Source of the DNA: Aeoliella mucimassa
Lineage (GTDB): Bacteria > Planctomycetota > Planctomycetia > Pirellulales > Lacipirellulaceae
Length of the DNA: 64,000 nt
Direction: 5' to 3'
Assembly: GCF_007748035.1 (NCBI RefSeq)
Contig: NZ_CP036278.1
Location: 3,286,001-3,350,000 of the forward strand
Shown: positions 7,055 to 43,783 of the stretch, in pieces
How positions within the stretch are numbered: position 1 is the first letter of the stretch
Layout of the letters: each line of letters starts with the position of its first letter
Notes under the pieces: model-generated
What the model saw: only the letters and a program-made list of their open reading frames with translations
Database searches by the model: none
Told to the model about the DNA's origin: nothing
Position numbers and translations under genes: made by a program

Positions 7055-10000
7055 ATGGCGGTATTTCGAAAGCGGCACCACAACTCTCGCACCAAATCTC
7101 ATGCGTCGCGTCGTAACAGAGGTTCGCGCCTGCGCATGGAGCAGTTGGAAGACCGTCGTCTTCTAGCGGTGGTGATTAATGAGATTCACTACAATTCGGC
7201 CGACAACACCAGCTTTGAAGAGTTCATCGAACTCTACAATACGTCGTCGGAACCGGTGGACTTATCGGGCTGGGAATTCACCGACGGCATCGACTACACG
7301 TTTGCCGAAGGGCAAACGATCGCCGGCAACGGGTACGTTGTCTTGGCCCAGGATCCCGCGACTCTGCTTTCTGAGTTTGGCACCGTTGCCACTGGTATGT
7401 ACGCAGGCGGCTTGAGCAACGGCGGCGAGCGTGTTGCGTTGTCGGACAGTAGTGGCAACCTGATCGACGAAGTCGAGTACAGCACGACCTTCCCCTGGCC
7501 AATCTCCCCTGATGGCGAGGGGATGTCGATGGAATTGGTGAATCCCAACCTCGACAACAACCTCGGCAGCAACTGGCGTCCTGCTTTCACCGAACCTTTG
7601 TTCGCCAGCCCCGACGATGGTTCCACCTCGGACTTGGTGAGTGGACTCGTGCATCGCTGGAGCTTCTCCGGCAATCTCGAAGACAGCGTCGGTGGCGATG
7701 ATGCCACACTGGTCGACCCTGCTGGCATTACAGAGTTCGTCAACGGCCGACTGGATGTCTCACGCAATTCGGGCCAACTCTCGAATCAGGTACCTTTCGA
7801 ATCGGGAGCCTACGTCGACCTGCCTAACGGCATTATCTCCGATCTTGGCGAGAGCGCTACGTTCGAATGGTGGGGTACAGTGACCCGCAATCGCACCTGG
7901 GCCGAGATCTTCTCGTTCGGCACCAGCGACGGTGGCGAAGACAGCTCCTCCAGCGCGTCGGGCCAGAGTTACATCACACTCATCCCCCGCGCCGACTCGG
8001 GCGATCTTCGACTTTCCCATCGCAATGGAACTACCAGTGTAGAAACCTCGATCGACTGGTCGCAATCACCAAACACGAACACCGAGTATCACTTTGCCGT
8101 TGTCTGGGATGGAGCATCAGACACCCAGTCGCTTTACGTCAACGGTCAACTGGTGGGACAAAGCTCCACCACGCTTGATCTGGCCGATCTAAACGACAAC
8201 AACAACTGGCTCGGACGCTCGCAATGGAACGATCCGCTGTTCGACGGCTATCACAACGAGTTTCGCATCTACAATCAGGCTCTTAGTAGCTCAGCGCTTG
8301 CCGAAAGTTACGAAGCGGGTCCGAATGCGGTATTCGCGGGGCCAACGATAAACTCGTTTGAAGCCAATCAAAGCTCGATCGTCAGCGGCGAGACCGTCGT
8401 ACTCACCTGGAATGTGACCGACGCCACCTCGCTCACTATCACACCTGATGTAGGGGACGTTACCAATCGGTCGGGGACCACAGTCAGTCCCACCGAGACA
8501 ACTACTTACGTATTGATTGCGACCAACAACGAGGGCACCACCTCGCGGGCAGTCACCATTACCGTAGAACCGCAGCGTGCAACTCCAGGAGCGGCAAACG
8601 CCACGCTGGCAGACAACGCAGCCCCTGCGATTGCATCGATCGACACCTCTGGTGGCGACACGTCTGAGAGTATTGGAGTCGTTACTGCGGAAGTCTCCGA
8701 TCCCGACGGGGTTGCCTCGGTTGAATTGCAGTATCAGATCGTGCTACCAGGCGAGTATATCCCCGCTCGCTTGCCCGTGGACGTCGACGCTCTGGTCGCG
8801 AACGCCACGCTGCTTCCTACGGCTAATCCCGAGTACTTCGACCTGGCAAATTGGACTACCATCGTGATGGTGGACGATGGTACGGGAGAAGACGCGGTAG
8901 CTGGCGACGGCATCTACACCGCGTCGATACCGGCCCAAGCTCACCGCACGCTGGTGCGATATCGTATCGAAGTGTCCGACACGCTTGGCGCTACCGCGAT
9001 GGCTCCCTACGCCGACGATGCTTCGCTGAACTTTGCTTACTTTGTCTACGATGGCATTCCCGACTATGTCGACAATAACAACCAGCTGCTAGCCGATGCC
9101 GATGCGTTGGACTCGTTGCCGGTTTATCACTTGCTGACTCGTGCCGAAGACATAGCCGAAGCCAACGCCTGGGATTCCGACGACCAGATCCCCCAAGGCA
9201 CCGAGGCTCGCTACACGTTCAACTGGGGCGGCACCATTGTCTACAACGGCAAAGTCTACGACAACATCCAATATCGCCCTCGCGGAGCGAACGGCCGCTA
9301 CTACGGCGAAGGCAAACGGAGCATGCGATTCCGTTTCAACGATGGCAATTGGTTCGAACCTCTCGACCAGGATGGTGAGCCGTATCCCGAACAATGGAAA
9401 ACGCTGACCACAGGCAAGGGATTCGACAACCACTCAACGTTAACTTACTCGCTGAACGAAGCCATCACGCTGCAACTCAGCAACATGCTTGGTTTGCCAG
9501 CGATCGAAACGCACTGGTTCCAATTCCGCGTGATCGACGATTCCGCCGAAGCTCCTGATCAATGGAACGGGGATTTCTGGGGAATCAACTTCGCCCTTGA
9601 GGACTACGACAAACGCTTCCTCGATGCGCATGACCTGGAGGAAGGCAACCTTTACAAACTCAACAATCAGACACAAGACGCCGAGCGTCAACTCGATTAC
9701 CAGGCACCGAACGCGGTGTCAGACGGGTCGGATTTCAACTACGTTGAGTACGCGATGGGCCGGGCGAGCGACAAAATTGAGTATCGTGTCGACCTCGAGA
9801 AGTACTTCATCTACCACGCCTTGTCCGAAGCAGTTCGCCATTACGACTATTGGCCCACGGCCAACAAGAACATGGCCTACTACTTTGCGCCGAACTACAC
9901 CGCTGAGAAAGACTACAAAGGGGAGCTTTGGCTGCTGCTTTGGGATACCGATGCCAGCTGGGGTCCGACTTGGAACGAGGGCAAAGACCTGGTTTACGAC

Positions 10001-11881
10001 GCCCTGTTCGAGAATTTCGATCCGTCGTACGCCGACAGCCTGATCAAACCCGCGTACTACAACACCCTACGTGAACTGCGTGACCTAATCTGGCAGCCTG
10101 ACCAACTTGAGGGCATGATCAACGAACTGGTTTCGAATATCCTGCCGCTCGAAGCTGCGGATCGCGCTCGCTGGCAAGGAGCTCCCGATTCCGCTGGCAA
10201 CTACGATGGTCTCAGCGGCGCTGGCTCCGTGTCGCTGTCGAATCTCGTGCAGGACATGCTGAACTTCGCGTTCGTGGGAGGAAACTGGCCCAGCGGAGGC
10301 ACCAATTCCACCGGCTACGTCGGTCCTGGCGGTCGGGCGGCGTATCTTGATGATCAACTCGTCAACTCTGGCGAAGAAGCCCTCATTCCCGAAACACCGG
10401 TAATCACCTACGTCGGCGATCCCGGCATGGCGGCCGACGAGCTCGCGTTCGAAGCCACGACGTTCGCCGACCCTCAGGGGAATAACACCTTCGGTGCGAT
10501 GGAATGGCGAATCTCGCAAGTCACTCCCGTATCCGCGGGACTTGATACCGACCTGGAGTTCCTCGACGAGTGGACCGCCAGCTGGACTTCGGGAGAGCTC
10601 ACAACCTACAGTTCCACAATTGCCCCTTCCAGCTCAGCTGTCACTGCGGGAGAAATCTATCGCGCTCGTGTTCGCTATCAGGACGACACCGGGCGGTGGA
10701 GCCACTGGTCGGATCCCGTTGAGTTTGTCGCGGCAGAAGCCAACGGCTCAACCACACTGGCGATTACCGAACTGCATTACCATCCAAACAACTCCAGCCT
10801 TGTCGATGAAGACGATCAAGAATTCATCGAAATCCTGAACACCGGAAGCACAACAATCGACTTGACCGGAGTGCAGATCACCGACTTTGCCTCGACCCCC
10901 TACGTATTCTCGCCGGGCCAGATGCTGGCACCAGGAGAGTACATGGTAATCGCCCGCACTCCGGAGGTGTTCGAAGCCGTCTATGGAACGAACGTCAATC
11001 TAGCCCTCGATGGATTTGGTGACCGTAATCTCAGTAACGGCGGCGAAACTATCTCGCTGCTTGACGCATCGGGCAACGTGATCCAGAGCTTTACCTACAG
11101 CGACGACACCCCCTGGCCCACTACTGCTGATGGCGATGGCCCTTCTCTGGAGATCATCGATCCGCTGGGGGATGCGAACGACCCGCTCAACTGGAGAGCA
11201 AGTCGCTACGATGGCGGTTCCCCAGGGGTCGAAGCACTCTCGATCCCCGGCGACTACGACTTAAGCGGGGTTGTTGATCAGAACGACTACCTCCTCTGGA
11301 AGTCACAGATCGGCTCTAGGGTCGCCATTGCTGGAGCAGGTGCCGATGGCAACCGCGACGGAGTGGTTAGCCTTGGCGACTACACGATCTGGCGTGACAA
11401 CCTTGGTGCAATTGCCGAGGTGGCCAGTATTGGTTCGCCGGAAGTCGCTGCCGTGTCGAGTACCACGGAACCCGCAGCTCCCCCCGTGGTTGTTGAGATC
11501 CTGGAGCCGGAACAAGAGCAAGAACTGCAAGCAGAACCACAAGAGTACTTGCCAACAGATCCATCGCCCGCACCTGCGGCCGATGCACAGACGACGAATT
11601 CCACCACAACGACCCTTCCGCAAGTAGCTCAGATGCAGCTGCCAGCGAGCAGCGGGTCTCAAGCACGTCAAGTAGCGATCGAACAGCTCTTCAGCAATTC
11701 GGACCCAACCGATCCCGCACTGCTCTGGGCCCCTCGCTTCGCTCGTCGACATGAAGTCCGCCAAAGCTCGGTCGACCAATCTCCCCGGAAACTGGTTGCC
11801 ACCCCCGCAGCGGTCGATTCCCTTGACTCTCAGGATCTTGAGATCGATTGGCGTTGGCAACTTTCTACCAAGCGAAGGTAA
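7055..11881 (+). CDS. Giant CotH-type surface protein with lamin-tail, LamG and dockerin domains
   Basis: This protein has 1608 residues. The basic N-terminus leads to MEQLEDRRLLA (about residues 28-38), the planctomycete LEPR-type export motif. Domains in order: a lamin-tail domain (~40-180, VINEIHYNS, LSGWEFTDG), a LamG/concanavalin-like domain (~195-425), an Ig-like domain (~430-510), a second beta domain (~520-670), a CotH kinase-like domain (~687-1030, with YRPRGANGRYYGEGKRSMRFRF and LWDTDASWG), another beta domain, a second lamin-tail domain (~1234-1385) and dockerin-like loops (GDYDLSGVVDQNDYLLW, DGVVSLGDYTIWRDNLG, ~1397-1450). The C-terminus is Pro/Gln/Glu-rich. CotH proteins in Bacillus are atypical protein kinases of the spore coat; whether this one phosphorylates anything is unknown. 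The start has no strong ribosome site. Confidence 0.85.
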   Translation: MAVFRKRHHNSRTKSHASRRNRGSRLRMEQLEDRRLLAVVINEIHYNSADNTSFEEFIELYNTSSEPVDLSGWEFTDGIDYTFAEGQTIAGNGYVVLAQDPATLLSEFGTVATGMYAGGLSNGGERVALSDSSGNLIDEVEYSTTFPWPISPDGEGMSMELVNPNLDNNLGSNWRPAFTEPLFASPDDGSTSDLVSGLVHRWSFSGNLEDSVGGDDATLVDPAGITEFVNGRLDVSRNSGQLSNQVPFESGAYVDLPNGIISDLGESATFEWWGTVTRNRTWAEIFSFGTSDGGEDSSSSASGQSYITLIPRADSGDLRLSHRNGTTSVETSIDWSQSPNTNTEYHFAVVWDGASDTQSLYVNGQLVGQSSTTLDLADLNDNNNWLGRSQWNDPLFDGYHNEFRIYNQALSSSALAESYEAGPNAVFAGPTINSFEANQSSIVSGETVVLTWNVTDATSLTITPDVGDVTNRSGTTVSPTETTTYVLIATNNEGTTSRAVTITVEPQRATPGAANATLADNAAPAIASIDTSGGDTSESIGVVTAEVSDPDGVASVELQYQIVLPGEYIPARLPVDVDALVANATLLPTANPEYFDLANWTTIVMVDDGTGEDAVAGDGIYTASIPAQAHRTLVRYRIEVSDTLGATAMAPYADDASLNFAYFVYDGIPDYVDNNNQLLADADALDSLPVYHLLTRAEDIAEANAWDSDDQIPQGTEARYTFNWGGTIVYNGKVYDNIQYRPRGANGRYYGEGKRSMRFRFNDGNWFEPLDQDGEPYPEQWKTLTTGKGFDNHSTLTYSLNEAITLQLSNMLGLPAIETHWFQFRVIDDSAEAPDQWNGDFWGINFALEDYDKRFLDAHDLEEGNLYKLNNQTQDAERQLDYQAPNAVSDGSDFNYVEYAMGRASDKIEYRVDLEKYFIYHALSEAVRHYDYWPTANKNMAYYFAPNYTAEKDYKGELWLLLWDTDASWGPTWNEGKDLVYDALFENFDPSYADSLIKPAYYNTLRELRDLIWQPDQLEGMINELVSNILPLEAADRARWQGAPDSAGNYDGLSGAGSVSLSNLVQDMLNFAFVGGNWPSGGTNSTGYVGPGGRAAYLDDQLVNSGEEALIPETPVITYVGDPGMAADELAFEATTFADPQGNNTFGAMEWRISQVTPVSAGLDTDLEFLDEWTASWTSGELTTYSSTIAPSSSAVTAGEIYRARVRYQDDTGRWSHWSDPVEFVAAEANGSTTLAITELHYHPNNSSLVDEDDQEFIEILNTGSTTIDLTGVQITDFASTPYVFSPGQMLAPGEYMVIARTPEVFEAVYGTNVNLALDGFGDRNLSNGGETISLLDASGNVIQSFTYSDDTPWPTTADGDGPSLEIIDPLGDANDPLNWRASRYDGGSPGVEALSIPGDYDLSGVVDQNDYLLWKSQIGSRVAIAGAGADGNRDGVVSLGDYTIWRDNLGAIAEVASIGSPEVAAVSSTTEPAAPPVVVEILEPEQEQELQAEPQEYLPTDPSPAPAADAQTTNSTTTTLPQVAQMQLPASSGSQARQVAIEQLFSNSDPTDPALLWAPRFARRHEVRQSSVDQSPRKLVATPAAVDSLDSQDLEIDWRWQLSTKRR

Positions 11882-11960
11882 CTCGTCTTCAGGCTCTCGC
11901 TATGTGGTCTACCTCAGGATTCTTACTCAATTCTAGAGGACTTGCTGAGCAAATTCTGGC

Positions 11961-11989
11961 TTGACGCCGAATGGGCGAGTATCTACTGT
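11961..11989 (+). promoter_or_regulatory. Sigma-70-type promoter of the TetR gene
   Basis: TTGACG (11961-11966) and TACTGT (11984-11989) are spaced by 17 bp, matching the consensus at 5/6 and 4/6 positions. The predicted transcription start lies at about 11996, immediately before the palindromic operator at 12001, which suits autorepression. Confidence 0.55.
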
Positions 11990-11998
11990 TCAAAGATC

Positions 11999-12015
11999 GG
12001 ACGGACGCGTCCGTT
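11999..12015. promoter_or_regulatory. Probable TetR operator, copy 1
   Basis: The 14-bp perfect palindrome ACGGACGCGTCCGT (12001-12014) lies within GGACGGACGCGTCCGTT, a 17-bp sequence repeated exactly at 14104-14120 before the pump gene. It sits just upstream of the TetR gene and downstream of its -10 box. Operator function is inferred from symmetry, position and duplication. Confidence 0.75.
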
Positions 12016-12055
12016 TTGATTCAAGCCAATGAAACCAGTGCAAAAAGGGATTGCG

Positions 12056-12679
12056 ATGCTCAACCTCAGCGATACGGAATCCCGAATTCTTCGAGTCGCC
12101 TGCGACGTATTTGCCAGAGAAGGTTTTCGCAACGCCGACGTGCAGGTGATTGCTGATCTCGCGGGGGTCGGCAAAGGGACAGTCTACCGACACTTTGGCA
12201 ACAAAGAGCAGCTGTTTCTAGCTGCCTCGAAGCACGCGGTCGAAGAAGTGGCAGCCCACATATGGAAAGACGTAATCGGCGATGCTGATCCCGACGATGT
12301 ACTGGCTAACATCGGTACGACAAACATGCTTCGCAAGATCGCCGCTTCATACGCTTCGTACTATCAGCGAAAGCCCGGGGTAGTAGAGTTGATGATCCAA
12401 GAGCGGGCGGAGTTCCGGCAGTCGGTCTTTCCAACCCACTTGATGCATCGCGCCGAACATCGTGGCGGGTTGGAACGACTATTCCAACGCGGGATGGAAC
12501 GAGGAGAGCTACGCGATTTCGAAACGGGGCCAGTTGCCGATGCCTTCGCCGACATGCTGTATGGCAGCGTGGTGAATGGTTGCCTCGATGGAGGGCATCA
12601 GCATCTGCCCGAACGAGTGGCATGTGCCGTGGAGATCTTCATCAACGGCTTGGCTTGTTCACCAATCCATGAAGAGTAA
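12056..12679 (+). CDS. TetR/AcrR-family transcriptional repressor
   Basis: The product is 207 residues, typical for the family. The N-terminal helix-turn-helix is clear (VACDVFAREGF, then IADLAGVGKGTVYRHFGNKEQLF, ~12-55); the rest is the variable ligand-binding domain. The ATG at 12056 has AAAGGGA about 6 nt upstream and is preferred over 12029, which lacks a ribosome site. Repressors of this family usually control adjacent efflux genes and release DNA on binding a pump substrate. The next gene, 19 bp on, is the pump's adaptor, and the same palindrome lies before this gene and before the pump gene, so it probably represses both. The ligand is unknown. Confidence 0.9.
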   Translation: MLNLSDTESRILRVACDVFAREGFRNADVQVIADLAGVGKGTVYRHFGNKEQLFLAASKHAVEEVAAHIWKDVIGDADPDDVLANIGTTNMLRKIAASYASYYQRKPGVVELMIQERAEFRQSVFPTHLMHRAEHRGGLERLFQRGMERGELRDFETGPVADAFADMLYGSVVNGCLDGGHQHLPERVACAVEIFINGLACSPIHEE

Positions 12680-12698
12680 ATGTGCGAAGGAACGACAC

Positions 12699-14060
12699 AT
12701 GAAATCACAACGACTTGACATGCAGACTGCTCTGACAGGATTCTTGGCAACTCTTTTGCTAGTGACTGCAGGCTGTAACCAGCCCGCTCCCACCGAGCAA
12801 GAAGCGGCTGCGTATCAGATTCAAACAACTAGCATCTCGGTACGCGTGGCTCCGGTCATGCATCAATCGCTTGTCACTGAGAAAGAGTTCACTGGCAACC
12901 TGCTTCCCCGCCGTGTCACCCGTATTATGGCCGAAGTGCCCGGCGTGGTTGCCGAGATCCCTCAAGTAGGAGCCAAGTTCGATATCGTCGTCGAGGGCAA
13001 GCACTACTCCGAGCAACTCGGTCTGACCTACGGCCAGCCGGTTACCAAGGGGGATCTGCTACTGCAGCTCGACACACGTGATTACGAAGTAGATCTGCAA
13101 ATGGCTCAAGCAAAGCTGGCGAAAGCTTCGGCAGATCTAGCGAAGCTCGAATCGTGGGAGCGCGCCGAGGAAGTCACTCGGCTAAGTGCGTTACAAGCCG
13201 AGGCCGCTGCCCGACTCGAGCAAGCGAAGCGAGATCGCGATCGCATGCAGCAACTGCTGCCGACACATGCGATTTCGCAAGCCGAGTTCGAAGAGAGCGA
13301 GCTAGCGGTGGCCACCGCCAGTGCGGCTGTGGATAGTGCCGCCGCGTTAGTGAAGCGAGCCCAGGCAGGCCCGACCGAAGAAGAAATTGCGGTACAGCGG
13401 GCCCTGGTATCGCAGGCCGAAGCCGAAGTCGAGCAAAGCAAGATCGAACTCTCCAAGACCACGCTGCTGGCCCCTTACGACGGAGTGATCACCGCCATCA
13501 ATGTGGAAGTTGGTGAGCGAGTCGCCGCGTCGGGTGATGTGCTCGTCGAACTCATGGACCTTAGCTATTTGGTGGCCGAGATCGGTATTCCTGAGTCGTT
13601 CGTCGGGGCCGTGAAAGTTGGCGATCAGGCCTCCGTACTCGCTTCGGGAAGTGTCGAGCCGGTTACCGGGCTGGTGGTCGCAATAAACGAACGCGTGGAT
13701 CTCGAAACGCGCACTTTCCGCGCCCGAGTCGCCATCGACAACGCGAACGCCCGCTTCAAGGCAGGCCAGTTCGCTCGCGTTCGAATCCCCTTCCGACCCA
13801 CGACCGAGGAAACGCTCGTCGTTCCCTCGGAAGCTATCGTGTTTATCGAAGGCCAGCCGCACGTTTATGCGGTAGAGAACGGTCGGGCGATCGCCAAACA
13901 GATCGAGTTGGGACTCGCTACCGATACCTCCACACAGGTGGTAGCCGGACTCGCTGGCGACGAACTTGTGATCACCGATGATCCCACGCTTGTCACCGAT
14001 CAATCGGAAGTCGTCGTCGAGTCTCCTCCGTCCACGGTTGTCGTTTACAAGCAGCCATAG
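12699..14060 (+). CDS. RND efflux periplasmic adaptor lipoprotein (HlyD/MFP family)
   Basis: The ATG at 12699 has AAGGA 8-12 nt upstream; the in-frame extension to 12576 overlaps the TetR gene and lacks support. The 453-residue product has a signal sequence with a lipobox (LLVTAGC, Cys26), a biotinyl-lipoyl half-domain near residues 85-130 (VPGVVAEIPQVG), a long Ala/Glu/Arg-rich helical hairpin (~130-250, expected coiled coil), a return lipoyl half (TLLAPYDGVITAINVEVGERV) and beta-barrel plus membrane-proximal domains. Such adaptors link an inner-membrane RND pump to an outer-membrane channel. No channel gene is present at this locus. Since the pump gene after it is broken, the adaptor may now be without a partner. 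Confidence 0.9.
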   Translation: MKSQRLDMQTALTGFLATLLLVTAGCNQPAPTEQEAAAYQIQTTSISVRVAPVMHQSLVTEKEFTGNLLPRRVTRIMAEVPGVVAEIPQVGAKFDIVVEGKHYSEQLGLTYGQPVTKGDLLLQLDTRDYEVDLQMAQAKLAKASADLAKLESWERAEEVTRLSALQAEAAARLEQAKRDRDRMQQLLPTHAISQAEFEESELAVATASAAVDSAAALVKRAQAGPTEEEIAVQRALVSQAEAEVEQSKIELSKTTLLAPYDGVITAINVEVGERVAASGDVLVELMDLSYLVAEIGIPESFVGAVKVGDQASVLASGSVEPVTGLVVAINERVDLETRTFRARVAIDNANARFKAGQFARVRIPFRPTTEETLVVPSEAIVFIEGQPHVYAVENGRAIAKQIELGLATDTSTQVVAGLAGDELVITDDPTLVTDQSEVVVESPPSTVVVYKQP

Positions 14061-14103
14061 TCCCCCCTCCACCGCTCCGCTTTTCATTCTTTGCACAACA
14101 ACT

Positions 14104-14120
14104 GGACGGACGCGTCCGTT
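14104..14120. promoter_or_regulatory. Probable TetR operator, copy 2
   Basis: GGACGGACGCGTCCGTT is an exact repeat of 11999-12015, containing the palindrome at 14106-14119. It lies in the 87-bp gap between adaptor and pump genes, 28 bp before the pump's ATG, implying a second regulated promoter or a roadblock inside the operon. No clear -10/-35 pair was found for it. Confidence 0.7.
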
Positions 14121-16254
14121 CGACCTTCGGTCCTTCGAGTATTCAAGATGAAACTGTCCGAAACTGCCGTTCAGCGACCGGTGCTCACCCTCATGGTGTT
14201 CTCGGCGCTCATCGTGTTTGGCATGGTTGCCTACCGCACGCTCGGCGTCGCGCTCTATCCAGACGTAGATATTCCCGTCGTCACGGTCACGGTTACCTAC
14301 GAAGGGGCTGCTCCCCACACCGTAGAGACCGAGGTAACCGAGGTGCTGGAGGAATCACTAAGTACGATCAGCGGCATCAAATCGATGCGTAGCGAAACCA
14401 GCGAGGGGCTCTCGCAGGTGTTTCTGGAGTTCGAACTCAAACGCGATATCGATATCGCTGCTCAGGATGTTCGAGACAAGGTCTCCTCGGTGCAGTACGA
14501 GCTTCCTTCCGAAGCCGAGGCTCCCATTATCGAGAAGCTGGATCCCGACGCGACCCCGATTCTGGGAATCGTGCTGGCAGGTAAAGGCTCGGTGCGCGAT
14601 ATCTCTGAGATTGCCGACGATATCGTGAAACCGGCCATCGAAGGAATCGATGGAGTGGGTGGTGTGCAACTATCCGGAGATCGCGAGCGGGAGGTCCGCA
14701 TCTGGTTGCGAGTGAATGATCTAACCTCGTACAACCTCGCTGCTCAGGACGTTGTAGACGCCCTACGGGAAGGCAATATCGAGGTACCAGGAGGACGTCT
14801 CGAAGCGGGAGAGTCGGACCTGGTAGTCAAAACCAAAGGCAAGCTGAACGACGTGGCAGATTTTCGCCGCATGGTGATCACCCGCCGCAACGGACATGCC
14901 ATTCGTCTCGAGCAAGTTGCCTACGTCGAAGATGGTCTCGAAGATCGCCACAGCCTGGCTCGCCTAAACGGGCAACTAGCCGTATCGCTTTCGGTCCGCC
15001 AGCAGTCGGGCGCGAACATGGTGGTCGTGGCGAACGAAGTGAAGGCAACTTTAGACAAGATTCGCGACTCGTTACCAGAAGGGTACGACTTGCTGGTTGT
15101 CCAAGACAATTCTGCCTTCGTAGAACGGAGTGTAGACGAAGCACAAAGCGAACTGGTCCGAGGGGCAGCACTCGCGGTGCTGGTGATACTACTTTTTCTG
15201 CGGAGTATTCGAGGCTCACTTGTGGCGGCAGTCACGATTCCGGCCACAATTGTATCGACCTATGCTTTTATGATGGCGTTCGGCTTCACGCTGAATACCA
15301 TGACCCTGCTCGCGCTTACCATTTCGGTCGGCATGGTGATCGACGACTCGATCGTGGTGCTCGAAAACACCTGGCGACACATGCAAGAAGGCAAGCCGCG
15401 ACTGCATGCGGCCGTGGCGGCGATGGACGAAATCGGCTTTGCGGTTATTGCGACATCACTCTCCATCGCAGCGGTGTTTGTGCCTGTCGCCTTCATGGAT
15501 GGGCTTATCGGGCAATTCTTCTTCGAGTTCGGAATGACCATCACCTTTACGGTGATCATTTCAACGCTGATCGCCCTCTTCCTCTCGCCGATGCTCTGCT
15601 CGCAACTTCTAAAACTGAGCGCTTCGCACGGTCGCCTTTACCAGATTTCCGAAAACCTACTCACCGGTATCGAATCGCTTTACTCATGGGTGCTGGGCGT
15701 GGCTCTCCGTGCCCGCTGGCTTGTAGTGCTGGTAGCGATGGGAGTATTTCTCGCCAGTTGCACGCTGCTGCCGTTGATCGGTAAAGAGTTCACCCCCGCT
15801 GCTGACGAGGGGCAGTTTCAAGTACAACTCGAAGCTCCAGTTGGTTCGTCGGTGGACCGCACCGCTAAGCTGGCCGGGCAGGTCGAGGCCATTCTTGCGA
15901 CGCTTCCGGCTGTAGAGGACATTTATACAACCATTGGTGGACAGTACGAAGGACAAACCACGGTAGCCCAGGTGATGGTCCGCATGGTCGATCGCAGTCA
16001 GCGAGCCACTTCGCAGTCGAAGGCCATGGAACTGGCCCGTGAGCGACTCGCCCCCTACTCGCACTTGCGAATTACTGTGGATCCCATCGCCCGACTCGGA
16101 GGCGGCGGCATGCGTTCCGCTCCGGTACAGTACAATCTGCGGGGTGACGATCTCAATCAACTCACTCAGATCGCAGATACTCTAGTGGAGACACTGAAAG
16201 CGACCGAGGGCTTTGTCGATGTCAATACAACCAGTCAAAGTGGCAAGCCCGAAC

Positions 16255-17289
16255 GGCCTTGTTGACTAACTCCACTCGAACTGTGGAAGCCCGAGTTGGG
16301 TGAATTGATTGATGATTTTACAGCGCAAGCGGGCTTCCGTTTGTTGGTTTTCGAATACTCGGTTTTTGAGATGGCTCCCAAAGCTTTGTTTCACTCGGTA
16401 CATGGTCGTTTCCGCCAAGCTTCTACGATGATAGCCCACTTCCTCTTTCCAACTCCTACGCCCCTTGCGTCGAATCTGACGAATTGCCTCGTCCCGGGGC
16501 AAAGGCTCCTCCGCAGAGTTGCCATGTTGTTTGATCTTGGCGTTGTGCTGCGGCGGAATCACCGGCTCAATGCCTTCGGATTCCAGCCCTTCATAAACCT
16601 TCCACTTGTCGTAACTACCGTCGCCGTGAAACTTTTTTACGGGCTGCTCCACCTGCTCCAGCATTTCGGGAACCGCATCGGCATCGTGGCAACTGTTCTC
16701 GGTCAAAATCTCCGCCACAATCTCGCGGGTGTCAGGATTCACCGACAAATGCAGCTTCCGCCATGTCCGCCGCTTCGACTTGCCATGCGTCCGCATCTTC
16801 CATTCGCCCTCGCCAAACACTTTCATGCCGGTGCTATCCACCACGATATCGATGTCGCCCCTCTTGTTAGCGATATCGAGCGAAACATTCAGCTTGCTGG
16901 CTCGCTTGGCGAGCGAAGAATAATTGGGAATCGCTGCCTCGACGCCCAACATCGCCACCAGCGAGCGGCCGAATCCCTCAGTCTGCCGATAGGGAAGTTT
17001 CAGCAGTTCGCGAATCGTCAGCAAGCACTCGATCGCCGTATCGCTGAAGACAAAAGGGCGACCGACTTTTGTCTGGTCGTTAGGATGTTCCCAGTTCTCC
17101 AACGCCTCGTCGCTAAACCAAATAGTGATGTTTCCACGCTCGATGAGCGACTTGTTATACTCCTTCCAGTTCGTGACTTTGTAGGTTCGTTTTTCTTTCG
17201 TAGCCATGTTCGATCTCCGTAAAAAAGGTACGTGGTTCCATTCCACGTTAGTTTTTACGGAGGTTTGTGACTAATTGTTCAACAAGGCC
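16255..17289 (-). mobile_element. IS5-family (IS903-group) insertion sequence, copy 1
   Basis: The element is 1035 bp, bounded by inverted ends GGCCTTGTTGA... with 11 perfect terminal bases, close to IS903 ends (GGCTTTGTTGA). It is flanked by the 9-bp direct repeat AGCCCGAAC (16246-16254 and 17290-17298), the size expected for the IS903 group. It is inserted in the RND pump gene, with its transposase antisense to that gene. Confidence 0.95.
16266..17207 (-). CDS. IS903-group (IS5 family) transposase
   Basis: The product is 313 residues from ATG 17207, which has GGAG 8 nt upstream (an upstream extension to 17246 reaches toward the IS end). DDE catalytic signatures are visible: IVVDSTGMKVFGEGEW (first Asp), HGDGSYDKWK (second Asp) and RSLAETTMYRVKQSFG (Glu of the Y-(2)-R-(3)-E-(6)-K type motif). 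An intact, full-length enzyme; the encoded protein is identical to that at 23001-23942. Confidence 0.95.
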   Translation of the reverse strand: MATKEKRTYKVTNWKEYNKSLIERGNITIWFSDEALENWEHPNDQTKVGRPFVFSDTAIECLLTIRELLKLPYRQTEGFGRSLVAMLGVEAAIPNYSSLAKRASKLNVSLDIANKRGDIDIVVDSTGMKVFGEGEWKMRTHGKSKRRTWRKLHLSVNPDTREIVAEILTENSCHDADAVPEMLEQVEQPVKKFHGDGSYDKWKVYEGLESEGIEPVIPPQHNAKIKQHGNSAEEPLPRDEAIRQIRRKGRRSWKEEVGYHRRSLAETTMYRVKQSFGSHLKNRVFENQQTEARLRCKIINQFTQLGLPQFEWS

Positions 17290-18385
17290 AGCCCGAACTA
17301 TCGATCGCCATCAATCGTGACCGAGCTTCCGATTTAGGGGTGAAGGTGGAATCGCTTGGCAAAGCGATCAACCAACTCGTCGGCGGCCAGGCGATCTCCA
17401 CCTTCGAAACCGGTGGCGACAACATCGATGTCCGTGTTCGCCTGGTGGGTGACGATCGCCAGCACGCCAGCGCCCTCGAAACGCTGCCGATGCGTACTTC
17501 GGATGGCAGCCTGACGGAGCTTCGCAACATTGCCTCAGTTAGCAATACGTTCGGCCCGGTGACCATCGAGCGGCAAAACCGACGTCGTCAGGTGACAGTT
17601 CTGGCGAACCTTGCGGACGGAAAACCCTTGGCCGAAGCGGTGCAGCAAGTCGAGTCGCTCGCTCAAGAGATTGGCTTGCCCACCGGAGTCGAAGGAGTCT
17701 TCACCGGCACGGCCGAAACCATGGCCGAGTCGTTTGCCAGTATGCTTTTCGCCTTGGTGCTGGCAGTAGTCCTCACTTACATGGTGCTGGCCGCTCAGTT
17801 TGAAAGCTTTGTCCATCCCCTCACCATCATGATCTCGCTACCGCTGTCGATCGGTGGAGCACTCGGGGCGTTGGCTTTGACTGGCCGTACGCTCAACATC
17901 TTCAGCATGATTGGAATGGTGATGCTGATGGGCTTGGTGACCAAGAATGCCATCCTACTGGTCGACTATACGAACTTGCTTCGCCGGCGCGGGACCGCCC
18001 GAGACGATGCCCTGCGCCAAGCCGGACCTACAAGATTACGTCCGATCCTGATGACCACCTGCTCGACCATCGCCGGCATGATTCCGATTGCGATTGGCCT
18101 CGGCGAGGGTTCGGAGTCGCGAGCACCGATGGGAGCGTGCGTTGTGGGAGGGATGATTACCTCGACACTGCTAACCCTGGTGGTAATTCCAGTGGTTTAC
18201 AGCCTGATGGACCAGTTTTCGACTTGGGTCGTGCGATGGTTCTCACACGACCAATCAACAAACGAACTGGCTTCGCCTGCGTTGCTGGATCATACAAGTC
18301 AGCAGCAACTCCCTAGCCCTACTCCTTCGACAATCTCTGCGGCTTCCGCCAAAATTGCGTCGTGACCAATTCGTCAGTGATACAG

Positions 18386-20847: not shown

Positions 20848-21145
20848 AGGACCTTTACTCCAAACAACAACACCGACTCACAACCTTTGGGAAATCCATG
20901 CCGCCTTAGTCGCTCAGCTGGTGGGCGGAACTTTATTGAGGGGGTACTCTCCACTTTTATGTCTGTAGCACCTGAGTTTCTCTGTGAATATGTGGTATAG
21001 CACCTTGCTAAACACCATCTATAATCTAGCTCTCACACGAGGAAGATGACGGAAGCCCCGGCAAACCGAATTGCCAACAGTACTTTCCAACGAATCGGGT
21101 ACTGCGGTAGAAACGACCCAGGATTAGCTGACTGGACACATCCTA

Positions 21146-22305
21146 GTACGTCTTTCCTGAAATCCATTCCGCTGCTATATGCTGCGGAATGAAAAAGCAC
21201 ATTGTTTGCCTGGACCACCAGGCCCGTGGAGGTTTGGAGCAGCTAGCACGCTCAGGCGCCCGCGCGGCGCAAGTGGTGCGTCGCTGCCAGATATTATTGA
21301 AATCGGACTCGGGATGCACCGACGAAGAGATCGCCGAGCATGTGGGCTGCACGACGCGCAACGTCCGAGCCGTCCGAAAGCGGTTCTGCGAAGAGGGCGT
21401 CCAGCGGGCGGTGTACGATGCGCCTCGCTCGGGCCGCCCCCCAGAGTTCACCAAGCGGCAGCAGCAACAGGTAATCGCCCTGGCGTGCAGCGAGCCGCCC
21501 GAGGGACGGGCTCGCTGGACGCTGGAATTGTTGTGCGAGCACGCGGTGAAGGAAGGCTTCGTCGATTCGCTCAGCGTGACGGAGGTCTCGCTGTGGCTCA
21601 AGGAACACGACCTGAAGCCGTGGCGAAAAAAACTTGGTGCGTGCCCAAGCTGAACGACGAGTTCTGTGAGCGGATGGAGGACGTCCTCGAGCAGTACGAG
21701 AAGCCGCTCGACCCGAACGAGCCGGTCGTCTGCCTCGACGAGCAGCCCTATCAGAGGGTCGACGACGCGCGGCCGCCCGAGCCCGCGGCACCCGGCAAGA
21801 TCGCGAAGCAGGACTACGAGTACCGCCGCTGCGGAACCTGCAGCGTGTTCGTGGCGGTCGAGCCGAAGGCGGGCAAGCGATTCGTTCAGGCCAAGCGTCA
21901 CCGCAAGCGAGCCGACTTCGCCCGGTTCGTCCGCGACCTCTTGAAGCGCTATCCCGACGCAGAGCGGGTTCATCTGGTGATGGACAACCTCAACACGCAC
22001 AACGAGAAGTCGTTGATCGAAACCTTTGGCGAGGAGGCGGCTCGGCCAATGCTGGAGCGGATTGTGTGGCATTTTACCCCCAAGCATGCCAGTTGGCTCA
22101 ACATGGCCGAGATCGAAATCTCGGCCATACAGCGACAATGCCTGGGACGTCGGTTGGCTTCGCTCGACAAGGTTCAAAGCGAACTCTCCCACTGTTCACG
22201 CGACCGCAATCGGAAGAAAATCAAAATCAATTGGACCTTCCATCGAAAAGACGCCAAACGCGTCTTCCCTGAACTCTATAGGAAATGACTTCCGGGACGA
22301 CGTAC
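21146..22305 (+). mobile_element. IS630-family insertion sequence, copy 1
   Basis: The element is 1160 bp with imperfect inverted ends (left GTACGTCTTTCCTGAAATC, right complement GTACGTCGTCCCGGAAGTC, 15 of 19 matching). TA is duplicated at 21144-21145 and 22306-22307; the empty site would read CCTAGG. It interrupts the last codons of the broken HAMP kinase. Confidence 0.95.
21189..22288 (+). CDS. IS630 transposase, two frames joined by -1 frameshift
   Basis: The first frame (21189-21653) encodes the helix-turn-helix half (DEEIAEHVGCTTRNVRAVRKRF) and then WLKEHDLKPWRKK before running to a stop. The second frame carries the catalytic half (VVCLDEQPYQ, LVMDNLNTHNEKS, HASWLNMAEIEI, the DDE residues Asp, Asp and Glu). 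The overlap holds A_AAA_AAA (21626-21632) in the zero frame, a classic -1 slippery heptamer. Slippage gives KPWRKKTWCVPKLNDEF, the normal IS630 junction, and a 366-residue protein. Confidence 0.9.
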
Positions 22306-22918
22306 TAGGCACCGAATCTGACACCTGCGGTAGCACCCCATTCTCCGCGATTGGCAAGCACACTCGAAATACTGTACCAACACCAGGAGTCGACTCCACC
22401 TGAACATCCCCATGGTGTCGAAGCACCGACTGGTAAACAAAAGCGAGGCCTTGTCCGGTACCTTTTCCTACGTCCTTGGTAGTGAAGAAAGGATCGAAGA
22501 CCCGCTGTTGAAGTTCTTCTGGTATACCAATTCCATTGTCTGACACTTCGATGTACACCACATCGTCGGAGCTATACGTATTCACTTCGATAACCCCCAC
22601 ACCCGGCTGGCCATCGTAACGCTCTTCAATGGCATCCGAAGCGTTGACCAGCAAGTTCAGAATGATCTGACTTAGCTCCGCACGATCTCCGTAGGGGTAT
22701 GGCAGGTGCTCATCCAGGTTCATTTCCAATGAAGCTACGTATTTCCAACTGTTTCTGGCAATGACTGAGGCATCTTGGATGAGGGAATTCACGTCGACCG
22801 GCTCATGCTCCACTTTCCCAGCATGGGTCATCGCTTTCATCGCATGAACAATCTCGATGATCTTGCTAACAGCGGATGACGCATCGCTCAAGGCAGATGG
22901 AATCTCTGCATTCGCAAA

Positions 22919-23953
22919 GGCCTTGTTGAACAATTAGTCACAAACCTCCGTAAAAACTAACGTGGAATGGAACCACGTACCTTTTTTACGGAGATCGAAC
23001 ATGGCTACGAAAGAAAAACGAACCTACAAAGTCACGAACTGGAAGGAGTATAACAAGTCGCTCATCGAGCGTGGAAACATCACTATTTGGTTTAGCGACG
23101 AGGCGTTGGAGAACTGGGAACATCCTAACGACCAGACAAAAGTCGGTCGCCCTTTTGTCTTCAGCGATACGGCGATCGAGTGCTTGCTGACGATTCGCGA
23201 ACTGCTGAAACTTCCCTATCGGCAGACTGAGGGATTCGGCCGCTCGCTGGTGGCGATGTTGGGCGTCGAGGCAGCGATTCCCAATTATTCTTCGCTCGCC
23301 AAGCGAGCCAGCAAGCTGAATGTTTCGCTCGATATCGCTAACAAGAGGGGCGACATCGATATCGTGGTGGATAGCACCGGCATGAAAGTGTTTGGCGAGG
23401 GCGAATGGAAGATGCGGACGCATGGCAAGTCGAAGCGGCGGACATGGCGGAAGCTGCATTTGTCGGTGAATCCTGACACCCGCGAGATTGTGGCGGAGAT
23501 TTTGACCGAGAACAGTTGCCACGATGCCGATGCGGTTCCCGAAATGCTGGAGCAGGTGGAGCAGCCCGTAAAAAAGTTTCACGGCGACGGTAGTTACGAC
23601 AAGTGGAAGGTTTATGAAGGGCTGGAATCCGAAGGCATTGAGCCGGTGATTCCGCCGCAGCACAACGCCAAGATCAAACAACATGGCAACTCTGCGGAGG
23701 AGCCTTTGCCCCGGGACGAGGCAATTCGTCAGATTCGACGCAAGGGGCGTAGGAGTTGGAAAGAGGAAGTGGGCTATCATCGTAGAAGCTTGGCGGAAAC
23801 GACCATGTACCGAGTGAAACAAAGCTTTGGGAGCCATCTCAAAAACCGAGTATTCGAAAACCAACAAACGGAAGCCCGCTTGCGCTGTAAAATCATCAAT
23901 CAATTCACCCAACTCGGGCTTCCACAGTTCGAGTGGAGTTAGTCAACAAGGCC
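22919..23953 (+). mobile_element. IS5-family (IS903-group) insertion sequence, copy 2
   Basis: This 1035-bp element is in the opposite orientation to copy 1. It is flanked by the 9-bp direct repeat ATTCGCAAA (22910-22918 and 23954-23962) inside the broken HAMP kinase gene. Excision rejoins FAFANAEIPSAL in the kinase. Confidence 0.95.
23001..23942 (+). CDS. IS903-group transposase, copy 2
   Basis: The 313-residue protein is identical to the one encoded at 16266-17207, with all three catalytic residues present. The ATG at 23001 follows GGAG by 8 nt. Confidence 0.95.
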   Translation: MATKEKRTYKVTNWKEYNKSLIERGNITIWFSDEALENWEHPNDQTKVGRPFVFSDTAIECLLTIRELLKLPYRQTEGFGRSLVAMLGVEAAIPNYSSLAKRASKLNVSLDIANKRGDIDIVVDSTGMKVFGEGEWKMRTHGKSKRRTWRKLHLSVNPDTREIVAEILTENSCHDADAVPEMLEQVEQPVKKFHGDGSYDKWKVYEGLESEGIEPVIPPQHNAKIKQHGNSAEEPLPRDEAIRQIRRKGRRSWKEEVGYHRRSLAETTMYRVKQSFGSHLKNRVFENQQTEARLRCKIINQFTQLGLPQFEWS

Positions 23954-24007: not shown

Positions 24008-25236
24008 TGTAGTAACCAACACTTAATCTGACAGACAATCTAGTTAGCGACCAGTTGCAAGTTCTTGTCCAGTCGCTTTTCGTTGACGATCGATTTGGCA
24101 TCTTCGAAGGTTTCCATTGGCGTTTTGCCGTAACAGTAGCGACCGCTGTGCGGTCGCTCGTGGTTATAGCTCTTCATCCACTGGTCAAGATCTGTTTGCA
24201 GCTCCTCGATCGAGCTGAACATCTTCTTGCGGAATGCGACCTGGTAAAACTCCTGCAGCATGGTTTTGTGGAATCGTTCACAGATGCCGTTGGATTGTGG
24301 CCGCTTGGCCCTGGTCTTCGAGTGATCGATGTTCTCGATCGCCAGGTACAGTTGGTACTCGTGATGTTCACGGCTGCCACAGTACTCGGTGCCACGATCG
24401 GTGAGCATGCGCAGTACCGGCACGTCCTCTGCTTCGAAGAATGGAATCACCTGATCGTTTAACATATCGGCCGCGACCAACGCATTCTTGCGATCGTACA
24501 GCTTGGCAAACGCAACTCGCGAGTAGGTGTCGATCACCGTCTGCTGATAGATTCGCCCGACGCCCTTGATGGTGCCGACGTAGAACGTGTCCTGCGCCAC
24601 CAGGTAACCGGGATGCTCGGTTTCGATTTCACCATGAGCTTCCTTCTCCAGCTTCGCTTTCTCCAGGGCCACGACCTGGGATTCGGTAAGGATAATACCA
24701 TCTTGAGCCACTTTGGCCTCCAGAGCCTTCAGCCGCTTCTTGAACGTCTCCAGCTCATGCCGCAACCAGACGCTACGGACACCACCTGACGAGATCAGGA
24801 TGCCCCGTTTCTTCAGTTCGTTGCTCACACGGACCTGGCCATAGGCCGGTTGTTCGAAGGCCATTTCGACCACCGCTTCTTCGACCTCCGCGGCCACACG
24901 ATTCTTGACGACGGGCTTCTTCCGCGAGATCTCCTTGAGGGCCTCCTCACCGCCGTTGTCGTACAACTCTTTGAAGCGATAGAAGCTATCTCGCGAGTAG
25001 CCAAACACTTTACACGCTTCGGAGACGTTGCCCAGCCGCTCAGCGAGTTTCAGCAGGCCCAGCTTGTTCTTGATGATTTTCTGATCGTTACTCATCTCGG
25101 ACACTCCTTGGGGGAAATGAGGCGGCCGCCGGCTGCAATCACTGCTATCACTCGCTGCGCTCGTTCAAGCAATGATTGCAGCCGGTACTCTAACCTCAAA
25201 CCTTGGTTAGTGTCAGATTAAGTTTTGATATCTACA
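24008..25236 (-). mobile_element. IS481-family insertion sequence, copy 1
   Basis: The element is 1229 bp with ends beginning TGTAG and sharing ACTTAATCTGACA within the first ~26 bp (inverted). It is flanked by the 7-bp repeat GATGATC (24001-24007 and 25237-25243). It lies in the broken kinase gene between the His-box and ATPase pieces; removal restores DKSLSEADHQRFNV. Confidence 0.93.
24040..25095 (-). CDS. IS481-family transposase
   Basis: The product is 351 residues from ATG 25095 (AAGGAG 8 nt upstream; a GTG at 25104 overlaps that site). An N-terminal helix-turn-helix (RLGNVSEACKVFGYSRDSFYRFKEL) precedes an rve/RNase H-like integrase domain with VAQDTFYVG (Asp), MLTDRGTEYCG (Asp) and SNGICERFHKTMLQEF (Glu), ending with YNHERPHSG. 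Intact and identical to the copy at 28562. Confidence 0.95.
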   Translation of the reverse strand: MSNDQKIIKNKLGLLKLAERLGNVSEACKVFGYSRDSFYRFKELYDNGGEEALKEISRKKPVVKNRVAAEVEEAVVEMAFEQPAYGQVRVSNELKKRGILISSGGVRSVWLRHELETFKKRLKALEAKVAQDGIILTESQVVALEKAKLEKEAHGEIETEHPGYLVAQDTFYVGTIKGVGRIYQQTVIDTYSRVAFAKLYDRKNALVAADMLNDQVIPFFEAEDVPVLRMLTDRGTEYCGSREHHEYQLYLAIENIDHSKTRAKRPQSNGICERFHKTMLQEFYQVAFRKKMFSSIEELQTDLDQWMKSYNHERPHSGRYCYGKTPMETFEDAKSIVNEKRLDKNLQLVAN

Positions 25237-25782
25237 GATGATCTGCTTCTGAAAGCGATTTGTCCTCTTCAATAATCTGTTGACATTGATTGACGACATC
25301 AACAAGGTATACGAATTGTTCTTCGAGGAACTCCACTTCGTTCGCGACGCATTGCATCGGCGTGTTGATCTCATGAGCGATGCCTGCAGCCAGCTGACCA
25401 ATCGACTCAAGACGACTTGAATGGGCGTGCTGGCGTTCCAATTCCTTCATAAAGGTCACTTCCTCAAGCAATCTTTCCGTTTCAGCTGCACGTTCGCGAA
25501 ATACTTCGGCCGCAGCGGCCAATCGCCCTAACTCATCGTTACGGTCGTGGCCAGGAATCTGATCGCATGCTTCCCCTTCTGCCAGACGGTCGAAGGTTGC
25601 TGTAATAGCGTTTAAGGGCGGAGCTACGTCTCGTGCAATCAACCACGACACTGCCACACCAAGAACGATGGTTACTATCGAAAACAAATGGCTCATCCAT
25701 TTGAAGCTATCACTGCGCTGTGCCATTTGCTTCGACAGTTCTGCAGCGCGGTGCGAATACTCTTGTTGAGTCGTTGAAGCTA

Positions 25783-26942
25783 GTACGTCGTCCCGGAAGT
25801 CATTTCCTATAGAGTTCAGGGAAGACGCGTTTGGCGTCTTTTCGATGGAAGGTCCAATTGATTTTGATTTTCTTCCGATTGCGGTCGCGTGAACAGTGGG
25901 AGAGTTCGCTTTGAACCTTGTCGAGCGAAGCCAACCGACGTCCCAGGCATTGTCGCTGTATGGCCGAGATTTCGATCTCGGCCATGTTGAGCCAACTGGC
26001 ATGCTTGGGGGTAAAATGCCACACAATCCGCTCCAGCATTGGCCGAGCCGCCTCCTCGCCAAAGGTTTCGATCAACGACTTCTCGTTGTGCGTGTTGAGG
26101 TTGTCCATCACCAGATGAACCCGCTCTGCGTCGGGATAGCGCTTCAAGAGGTCGCGGACGAACCGGGCGAAGTCGGCTCGCTTGCGGTGACGCTTGGCCT
26201 GAACGAATCGCTTGCCCGCCTTCGGCTCGACCGCCACGAACACGCTGCAGGTTCCGCAGCGGCGGTACTCGTAGTCCTGCTTCGCGATCTTGCCGGGTGC
26301 CGCGGGCTCGGGCGGCCGCGCGTCGTCGACCCTCTGATAGGGCTGCTCGTCGAGGCAGACGACCGGCTCGTTCGGGTCGAGCGGCTTCTCGTACTGCTCG
26401 AGGACGTCCTCCATCCGCTCACAGAACTCGTCGTTCAGCTTGGGCACGCACCAAGTTTTTTTCGCCACGGCTTCAGGTCGTGTTCCTTGAGCCACAGCGA
26501 GACCTCCGTCACGCTGAGCGAATCGACGAAGCCTTCCTTCACCGCGTGCTCGCACAACAATTCCAGCGTCCAGCGAGCCCGTCCCTCGGGCGGCTCGCTG
26601 CACGCCAGGGCGATTACCTGTTGCTGCTGCCGCTTGGTGAACTCTGGGGGGCGGCCCGAGCGAGGCGCATCGTACACCGCCCGCTGGACGCCCTCTTCGC
26701 AGAACCGCTTTCGGACGGCTCGGACGTTGCGCGTCGTGCAGCCCACATGCTCGGCGATCTCTTCGTCGGTGCATCCCGAGTCCGATTTCAATAATATCTG
26801 GCAGCGACGCACCACTTGCGCCGCGCGGGCGCCTGAGCGTGCTAGCTGCTCCAAACCTCCACGGGCCTGGTGGTCCAGGCAAACAATGTGCTTTTTCATT
26901 CCGCAGCATATAGCAGCGGAATGGATTTCAGGAAAGACGTAC
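25783..26942 (-). mobile_element. IS630-family insertion sequence, copy 2 (tandem)
   Basis: The element is 1160 bp in the opposite orientation to copy 1. TA at 25781-25782 precedes it and TA at 26943-26944 follows, which is the only DNA between it and copy 3. With copy 3 it disrupts the sensor part of the HAMP kinase. Confidence 0.95.
25800..26899 (-). CDS. IS630 transposase, copy 2
   Basis: Frame 1 is 26435-26899 and the catalytic frame ends at 25800; both are identical to copy 1, including the seven-A slippery site. Confidence 0.9.
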
Positions 26943-26944
26943 TA

Positions 26945-28104
26945 GTACGTCGTCCCGGAAGTCATTTCCTATAGAGTTCAGGGAAGACGCGTTTGGCGTC
27001 TTTTCGATGGAAGGTCCAATTGATTTTGATTTTCTTCCGATTGCGGTCGCGTGAACAGTGGGAGAGTTCGCTTTGAACCTTGTCGAGCGAAGCCAACCGA
27101 CGTCCCAGGCATTGTCGCTGTATGGCCGAGATTTCGATCTCGGCCATGTTGAGCCAACTGGCATGCTTGGGGGTAAAATGCCACACAATCCGCTCCAGCA
27201 TTGGCCGAGCCGCCTCCTCGCCAAAGGTTTCGATCAACGACTTCTCGTTGTGCGTGTTGAGGTTGTCCATCACCAGATGAACCCGCTCTGCGTCGGGATA
27301 GCGCTTCAAGAGGTCGCGGACGAACCGGGCGAAGTCGGCTCGCTTGCGGTGACGCTTGGCCTGAACGAATCGCTTGCCCGCCTTCGGCTCGACCGCCACG
27401 AACACGCTGCAGGTTCCGCAGCGGCGGTACTCGTAGTCCTGCTTCGCGATCTTGCCGGGTGCCGCGGGCTCGGGCGGCCGCGCGTCGTCGACCCTCTGAT
27501 AGGGCTGCTCGTCGAGGCAGACGACCGGCTCGTTCGGGTCGAGCGGCTTCTCGTACTGCTCGAGGACGTCCTCCATCCGCTCACAGAACTCGTCGTTCAG
27601 CTTGGGCACGCACCAAGTTTTTTTCGCCACGGCTTCAGGTCGTGTTCCTTGAGCCACAGCGAGACCTCCGTCACGCTGAGCGAATCGACGAAGCCTTCCT
27701 TCACCGCGTGCTCGCACAACAATTCCAGCGTCCAGCGAGCCCGTCCCTCGGGCGGCTCGCTGCACGCCAGGGCGATTACCTGTTGCTGCTGCCGCTTGGT
27801 GAACTCTGGGGGGCGGCCCGAGCGAGGCGCATCGTACACCGCCCGCTGGACGCCCTCTTCGCAGAACCGCTTTCGGACGGCTCGGACGTTGCGCGTCGTG
27901 CAGCCCACATGCTCGGCGATCTCTTCGTCGGTGCATCCCGAGTCCGATTTCAATAATATCTGGCAGCGACGCACCACTTGCGCCGCGCGGGCGCCTGAGC
28001 GTGCTAGCTGCTCCAAACCTCCACGGGCCTGGTGGTCCAGGCAAACAATGTGCTTTTTCATTCCGCAGCATATAGCAGCGGAATGGATTTCAGGAAAGAC
28101 GTAC
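26945..28104 (-). mobile_element. IS630-family insertion sequence, copy 3 (tandem)
   Basis: The element is 1160 bp, head to tail with copy 2 and separated from it by a single TA; TA at 28105-28106 follows. Flanks outside the pair (AGC-TA and TA-GTA) give an empty CTAG site. Confidence 0.95.
26962..28061 (-). CDS. IS630 transposase, copy 3
   Basis: Frame 1 is 27597-28061 and the catalytic frame ends at 26962. It is identical to copies 1 and 2 and has the same -1 frameshift arrangement. Confidence 0.9.
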
Positions 28105-28176
28105 TAGTAGCCTTTTCCACAACCGTTCTGTGATGTGCGAACGCACTCTTGATAGCGTTTGCCGAATAGCCCACTC

Positions 28177-40481: not shown

Positions 40482-40492
40482 GGACCACAAGA

Positions 40493-43783
<3,291 letters not shown>

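Follow-up and report, generated by a model that had tools for sequence, protein, structure and literature searches.

The locus described here resembles AcrR of acrAB, MtrR of mtrCDE, and TtgR of ttgABC in that a TetR-type repressor is encoded beside an adaptor-pump pair and a palindromic site lies at the promoter. The acrR, mtrR, and ttgR repressor genes are divergent from their pump operons. TetR regulators beside RND pumps are already known, and so, as reported for C.Kpn2I (PMC6237814), are autoregulators that act as roadblocks: the site of C.Kpn2I falls within a stretch that is transcribed, where the bound protein makes the elongating RNA polymerase stall.

Here we analyzed a stretch of 64,000 nucleotides, positions 3286001 to 3350000 of the Aeoliella mucimassa genome (6,608,792 bases, one contig), which is called the window and by whose positions the features are given. 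A sequence-only reading had noticed the same short palindrome before a tetR gene and before a pump gene and had predicted that one TetR-type repressor acts at two points of its own operon. The comparative data below support this prediction, and four genomes keep the copy before the pump gene.

Results

The operon runs on the plus strand in the order promoter (TTGACG-17-TACTGT), operator 1, tetR, adaptor, operator 2, and pump, with all three genes on one strand. Its features are as follows.

11961..11989, plus strand: sigma-70-like promoter, TTGACG at 11961-11966, 17-bp spacer, TACTGT at 11984-11989
12001..12014, no strand assigned: predicted operator 1, perfect palindrome ACGGACGCGTCCGT, core of the 17-mer at 11999-12015
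12029..12679, plus strand: tetR repressor gene; Pfam PF00440 TetR_N, E 1e-15; predicted model with TetR-family PDB matches
12699..14060, plus strand: RND periplasmic adaptor (membrane fusion) gene; NCBIfam TIGR01730 RND_mfp, 178.1 bits, cutoff 94.9
14061..14147, plus strand: adaptor-pump spacer of 87 bp holding operator 2, from length comparison among related operons
14106..14119, no strand assigned: predicted operator 2, the same palindrome ACGGACGCGTCCGT, core of the 17-mer at 14104-14120
14148..16254, plus strand: 5' part of the RND pump gene; Pfam PF00873 ACR_tran, profile positions 2-715; includes the left target duplication, 16246-16254
16255..17289, minus strand: IS5-family insertion sequence, 1035 bp; transposase 16266-17246, NCBIfam transpos_IS5_2, E 9.4e-95
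17290..18365, plus strand: right target duplication (17290-17298) and 3' part of the pump gene; PF00873 profile positions 732-1020

The TetR protein (P0001) carries the TetR_N helix-turn-helix (PF00440) at its N terminus, with 57.7 bits against a cutoff of 24; by eye, translation perhaps starts at 12056, an ATG with AAGGGA before it. Its AlphaFold2 model (mean pLDDT 85.4, residues 122-134 poorly predicted) has ten helices, and an all-helical C-terminal ligand-binding domain of the TetR fold is predicted. The named proteins among the 50 PDB fold matches listed were TetR-family members, with TM scores by query length of 0.49-0.75, E values of 3.3e-7 to 1.8e-5, and identities of 17-24%; the best PDB sequence match was 3vpr (E 3.4e-10). 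The protein also matched the NCBIfam MtrR and AcrR profiles, far under their curated cutoffs (47.6 of 280 bits and 31.2 of 271 bits, respectively). The RND adaptor (TIGR01730) adjoins an ACR_tran permease (PF00873) that is split into two parts, as in an RND efflux operon. Two more loci with RND pump matches lie in the window, at 30389-33436 and 39642-43702, and operator sites at up to one mismatch are absent from both.

The pump permease gene is not intact in this genome, as the IS5-family element at 16255-17289 interrupts it; the element ends and the 9-bp target duplication were read by eye. In the other seven genomes that passed E 1e-240 (eight loci), the pump frame was open over 1062-1221 amino acids; the Aeoliella straminimaris record L010 also has an open pump frame. 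At least 40 full-length IS5-family copies at 100% identity were found in the genome (76 first-look candidates, of which 40 were scored), which suggests a recent bloom of the element; the pump insertion is therefore probably recent as well. Since the pump is disrupted while the operators are intact, the output of the circuit may now be absent in this genome. The 1035-bp element also occurs at 22919-23953 in the window, and a 72-bp partial extra end stands beside four of the listed copies. Furthermore, a repeat of about 1166 bp, perhaps another insertion sequence, has four identical copies in the window (21142-22308, 25780-26946, 26942-28107, and 61903-63070), two of which abut head to tail. An exact 1230-bp direct repeat, at 24008-25237 and 28530-29759 (distance, 4522 bp), flanks two copies of the 1166-bp repeat.

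Both operator positions were confirmed exactly: the 17-mer GGACGGACGCGTCCGTT is found at 11999-12015 and 14104-14120. It had been described as a 17-bp palindrome, whereas only the 14-bp core (12001-12014 and 14106-14119) is perfectly palindromic, the 17-mer being the stretch identical between the copies. That it occurs nowhere else in fact holds for the entire 6.6-Mb genome, in which these are the only two exact copies, both in the same operon, and the next-best place has two mismatches. A common genomic repeat was thus rejected. At up to three mismatches, the window gave four matches, namely, both copies and their reverse readings, compared with a mean of 0.30 (maximum, 2) in 100 dinucleotide shuffles of the window; across the genome, the 17-mer was not in excess at this threshold (16 matches versus 27 for a reversed control pattern). 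The degenerate pattern ACKGACNNGTCMGT matched three genome sites, both copies and genome position 5771366, and its reversed control matched none. No tetR, adaptor, or pump homolog occurred in the 15 kb surrounding 5771366 (locus L090), which is inside a short reverse open reading frame, and we rejected this site as a further repressor target and regard it as a probable chance match.

TetR homologs were gathered by protein similarity, yielding 29 loci in a named genome collection (10 of them planctomycete), and by searches that hit 23 of 296 genomes of the order (E 1e-25), 10 of 43 of the family (E 1e-20), and 9 of 397 of the class (E 1e-35); the four sets overlap. Two frames counted as distinct when they differed anywhere in the first 190 residues compared; near-copies (L076 and one of L080) therefore count twice, and L010 to L018 were counted once with the equivalent records L065, L068, L067, L107, L079, L086, L109, L111, and L112. 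Among 43 distinct frames, 36 were counted; the other seven, from genomes found through the operator pattern, were left out, and all seven have the site. The 18 distant hits L020 to L037 were also left out, and L136 (genome G637) was kept apart. Within the 500 bp before the helix-turn-helix code (less for L073 and L083, whose upstream sequence is shorter), 34 of the 36 protein-selected tetR genes had a site at most one mismatch from ACKGACNNGTCMGT, 29 of them with no mismatch. In 100 shuffles of the 36 upstream regions, the mean was 0.08 (maximum, 1) at up to one mismatch and 0.0 at no mismatch. The aligned sites gave the consensus GGACGGACNNGTCCGTCC with a loose center, and the outer GG on the promoter side was G in 30 and 33 of 34 sites, respectively. 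The two tetR genes lacking a site both belong to L070, one a 34% homolog and the other a remote paralog with a different recognition helix.

The distant non-planctomycete TetR hits (L020 to L037) had no site at zero mismatches, and a single-mismatch match in one of them was inside the TetR coding region. As these hits lack an upstream site, the pairing of site and TetR is a property of this clade rather than of TetR proteins generally. In the reverse search, the 18-mer GGACGGACNNGTCCGTYY was found in 21 of 296 genomes of the order versus 6 of 296 for a reversed control, and in 20 of the 21 it adjoins a TetR homolog, the exception (G173) being a match within an unrelated reading frame. With two exact copies in the genome and this TetR neighborhood elsewhere, the palindrome is not a common repeat unrelated to TetR genes. 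Furthermore, G637, a genome found after the motif had been fixed, has the site behind a TTGACG element. The site also accompanies a Desulfohalobiaceae TetR homolog that shares 27% identity and whose recognition helix is almost unchanged. A control with random stretches gave 56 matches of 1080 at no mismatch and 66 at up to one mismatch, counts that include real sites and are therefore not clean. In the YR[HY]F motif of the recognition helix, H proteins had G/C at core positions 3 and 12 in 15 of 16 cases and Y proteins in 9 of 17, the one remaining protein having Q. This link between the H/Y residue and positions 3 and 12 (Fisher p 0.017, kinship ignored) is only a hint. The search of relatives that the earlier reading had proposed thus located the palindrome upstream of nearly all protein-selected homologs, and the comparative evidence that it is the operator of the adjacent TetR is strong.

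Two other arrangements were seen among the homologs. Paired operators 48-88 bp apart occur before a single tetR gene in L080 (12526/12575), L082 (1375/1423), and L131 (1501/1589), a double arrangement different from that of the tetR-adaptor-pump operon. In a sister TetR group (L015 to L018, that is, L086, L109, L111, and L112, together with L110), the repressor gene is divergent from a different RND pump, and one operator lies in the region shared with that pump.

The first copy had been placed just after a sigma-70-like -10 box, and this was borne out: TACTGT at 11984-11989 ends 11 bp before the operator 1 core, and the score of this promoter was reached by 5 of 100 base shuffles. A comparable arrangement recurred in 26 of 34 homologs, in which no more than 5 of 100 base shuffles reached the best sigma-70-like score in the 60 bp before the core, with 2-15 bp between the end of the -10 element and the core; in 20 of 34, the -35 element begins with TTGAC. 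Eight homologs had no good promoter, six of which are at loci divergent from a pump (L085, L086, L109, L110, L111, and L112); the remaining two are L079 and one of the pair of tetR genes in L080. A scan of 11800-14300 with a stricter consensus called zero promoters, the one at copy 1 included, so the copy 1 promoter rests on the looser scoring and on recurrence in homologs. Given its position just behind the -10 element, copy 1 would be about at the transcription start, the classical place for a block of initiation and for autoregulation.

The second copy was also where it had been reported, between the adaptor and pump genes in the 87-bp spacer, and three other genomes have it at the same place. 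For the comparison, ten tetR-adaptor-pump operons with pumps of at least 55% identity were taken together, and seven operons with distant pumps were treated apart. Four of the ten have copy 2, namely, this window, L064 (G115), L065 (G095, equal to L010, an Aeoliella straminimaris record of the same genus as the window), and L066 (G071), with adaptor-pump spacers of 87, 91, 99, and 66 bp, respectively. These genomes come from two families (f1 and f15), L066 being from a family other than that of the window. In the six operons without copy 2 (L009, L070, L071, L074, L075, and L082), the spacers are 28, 1, -4, -4, -1, and -1 bp. Among the seven distant-pump operons (L067, L068, L073, L077, L078, L083, and L084), all co-directional, none had a site in the spacer, and five (L067, L068, L077, L078, and L083) have long adaptor-pump gaps of about 54, 76, 109, 122, and 156 bp to the judged ATG or GTG start. 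A long spacer alone is therefore no sign of an operator, and the general rule that the spacer exists for the operator was rejected; the association of long spacer and operator holds only among the ten operons with pumps of at least 55% identity.

Compared pairwise, the four copy 2 spacers share no stretch longer than 7 bp except the operator. The copy 2 core ends 26-36 bp before the pump ATG in all four (28 bp in the window), and the core-to-core spacing of the two copies is 2069-2120 bp. The center is GA in both copies of L066 and GC in both copies of the other three genomes. Only the operator is shared between the spacers; copy 2 has thus been kept, matching copy 1 in L066, while its surroundings changed. 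L066 has another short inverted repeat downstream of copy 2, at 9299-9324 and ahead of the pump start, and the likely ribosome-binding site falls within it.

In all four genomes, the 60 bp ahead of copy 2 gave no sigma-70-like signal, as the best scores were reached by 57, 133, 140, and 99 of 200 shuffles; when the scan was extended to 30 bp beyond copy 2, they were reached by 122, 159, 135, and 179 of 200. No sigma-70-like promoter was thus seen at copy 2, a result that covers promoters of this kind only. Judged by eye, the two copies stay identical for only 16-18 bp within each of the four genomes, and no promoter came along with copy 2; duplication of a longer segment that included the promoter is therefore not favored as the origin of copy 2. 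L009, a close relative (pump 70% and tetR 56% identical), has no copy 2. The label "double" required one change on the pump tree (support 66/58, low), two on the adaptor tree, and three on the TetR tree, and related TetR proteins of L067, L068, L107, and L108 adjoin distant pumps or no pump match. The TetR, adaptor, and pump sequences point to no single clean shared history, and copy 2 may have arisen by one gain with a loss in L009 or by several gains.

Discussion

The sequences show the sites, with their conservation and positions, and they show an element resembling a promoter at copy 1 but none of sigma-70 type at copy 2; from this we infer binding, autoregulation, a ligand, and a roadblock. 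A TetR dimer would bind copy 1 just 3' of the -10 element, close to where transcription starts, and would block transcription of tetR, adaptor, and pump; as tetR is included, this would be negative autoregulation. A ligand, probably a pump substrate, would free the repressor. With tetR leading the operon that it would repress, some leakage of transcription has to persist, and this basal leak would go on supplying the repressor. Copy 2, which has no promoter of the copy 1 type, may not work by the same initiation block; a dimer bound there, 2.1 kb downstream, would most likely be a roadblock to RNA polymerase coming from the first promoter and would shield the pump gene from the basal leak as long as the ligand has not released both sites. 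We lean slightly toward this reading as a whole, with the palindrome as TetR operator, an initiation block at copy 1, and a roadblock at copy 2. The more specific proposal, that one TetR uses one operator sequence for two mechanisms, initiation block with autoregulation at the front and an elongation roadblock that spares the pump from leak, is tentative and somewhat short of probable.

Alternatively, the spacer might hold an internal promoter, the second of the operon, with copy 2 as its operator, so that the same repressor blocks initiation at both places. Such a promoter would fit the long spacer, which among related-pump operons occurs only where copy 2 is present, the position of the site just behind a promoter at 26 of 34 tetR genes, and a run of eight T between the adaptor stop and copy 2 in L064, which could mean that a separate transcript follows. 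However, the method that recognized those 26 promoters gave sigma-70-like scores no better than shuffles at copy 2 in all four genomes, and distant operons have long spacers without a site. As the scan recognized no sigma-70-like promoter at any of the four second copies, we rank the roadblock first and the internal promoter second, as a rather unlikely explanation. If copy 2 were an auxiliary site, acting through a 2.1-kb DNA loop or by concentrating repressor near copy 1, the operon would be expected to carry two identical sites, and their similar distance in four genomes might seem to agree; but this spacing simply follows from the gene lengths, and copy 2 hugs the pump start, a position that looping does not need. 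Looping of DNA over kilobases is not, in general, a known property of TetR-family dimers, and we consider an auxiliary role improbable.

Still less probable is that the palindrome acts in RNA, forming a hairpin ahead of the ribosome-binding site of the pump gene, or close to the mRNA 5' end, that affects translation, decay, or termination. The predicted minimum-energy fold holds the operator hairpin in three of the four spacers, the neighboring hairpin of L066 covers the likely ribosome-binding site in the predicted fold, and copy 1, taken together with the run of T that follows, resembles a terminator on the plus strand (4 such sites versus 2.2 expected by chance), copy 2 doing so on the minus strand only. 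Nevertheless, the same letters, and not just a stem, recur at the tetR promoters and at copy 2, and the remainder of the spacer is not conserved. Moreover, core positions 3 and 12 would be unpaired in RNA at 6 of 34 tetR sites (four T/C and two G/A), in which both half-sites stay of the AC[G/T]GAC type, as separately read DNA half-sites would allow. The broken pump in this genome and L009, which manages without copy 2, could be taken to mean that copy 2 is a nonfunctional relic or a chance copy. We consider this the least probable explanation, given that copy 2 is kept in four genomes of two families while the other spacer sequence diverged and that the only two exact 17-mers in 6.6 Mb fall in one operon. 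The roadblock proposal itself leaves the absence of copy 2 from thirteen other operons of the order unexplained and gives no reason why the adaptor is left unprotected, and the case for copy 2 comes from four operons, which are few.

The analysis provides a firm predicted operator, GGACGGACNNGTCCGTCC, for a TetR clade that is spread through the order of Aeoliella and reaches two genomes of other orders in the class. It also provides a natural contrast, four operons with an internal operator versus six related-pump operons without one, which bears on whether a repressor whose gene leads its own operon serves as an elongation brake that protects the cell from leaky expression of the pump. Among the literature matches listed, a scope outside which most subscription journals fall, no TetR-RND operator was described from Planctomycetota, and nothing was found on this operator sequence, on the regulation of planctomycete RND pumps by TetR proteins, or on in-operon TetR operators.

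Among TetR-family proteins of solved structure, PfmR of Thermus (3vpr), HapR, and FadR are fold matches of the TetR studied here, a comparison that covers the fold; the 50 fold matches listed are 17-24% identical to it. Compared with AcrR, MtrR, and TtgR, the repressor here is the first gene of the same operon, and a second copy of the site lies between adaptor and pump; the predicted site here is GGACGGACNNGTCCGTCC. The C.Kpn2I system (PMC6237814) is like the present proposal in having a regulator site within the regulator's own transcription unit, both this unit and the roadblock being putative here, and unlike it in that C.Kpn2I is a restriction-modification controller with the site in its own coding region, whereas here the site lies between the adaptor and pump genes. 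What the present comparison would add to these systems is a predicted operator shared across a TetR clade and, within the operon, a conserved and apparently promoterless second operator.
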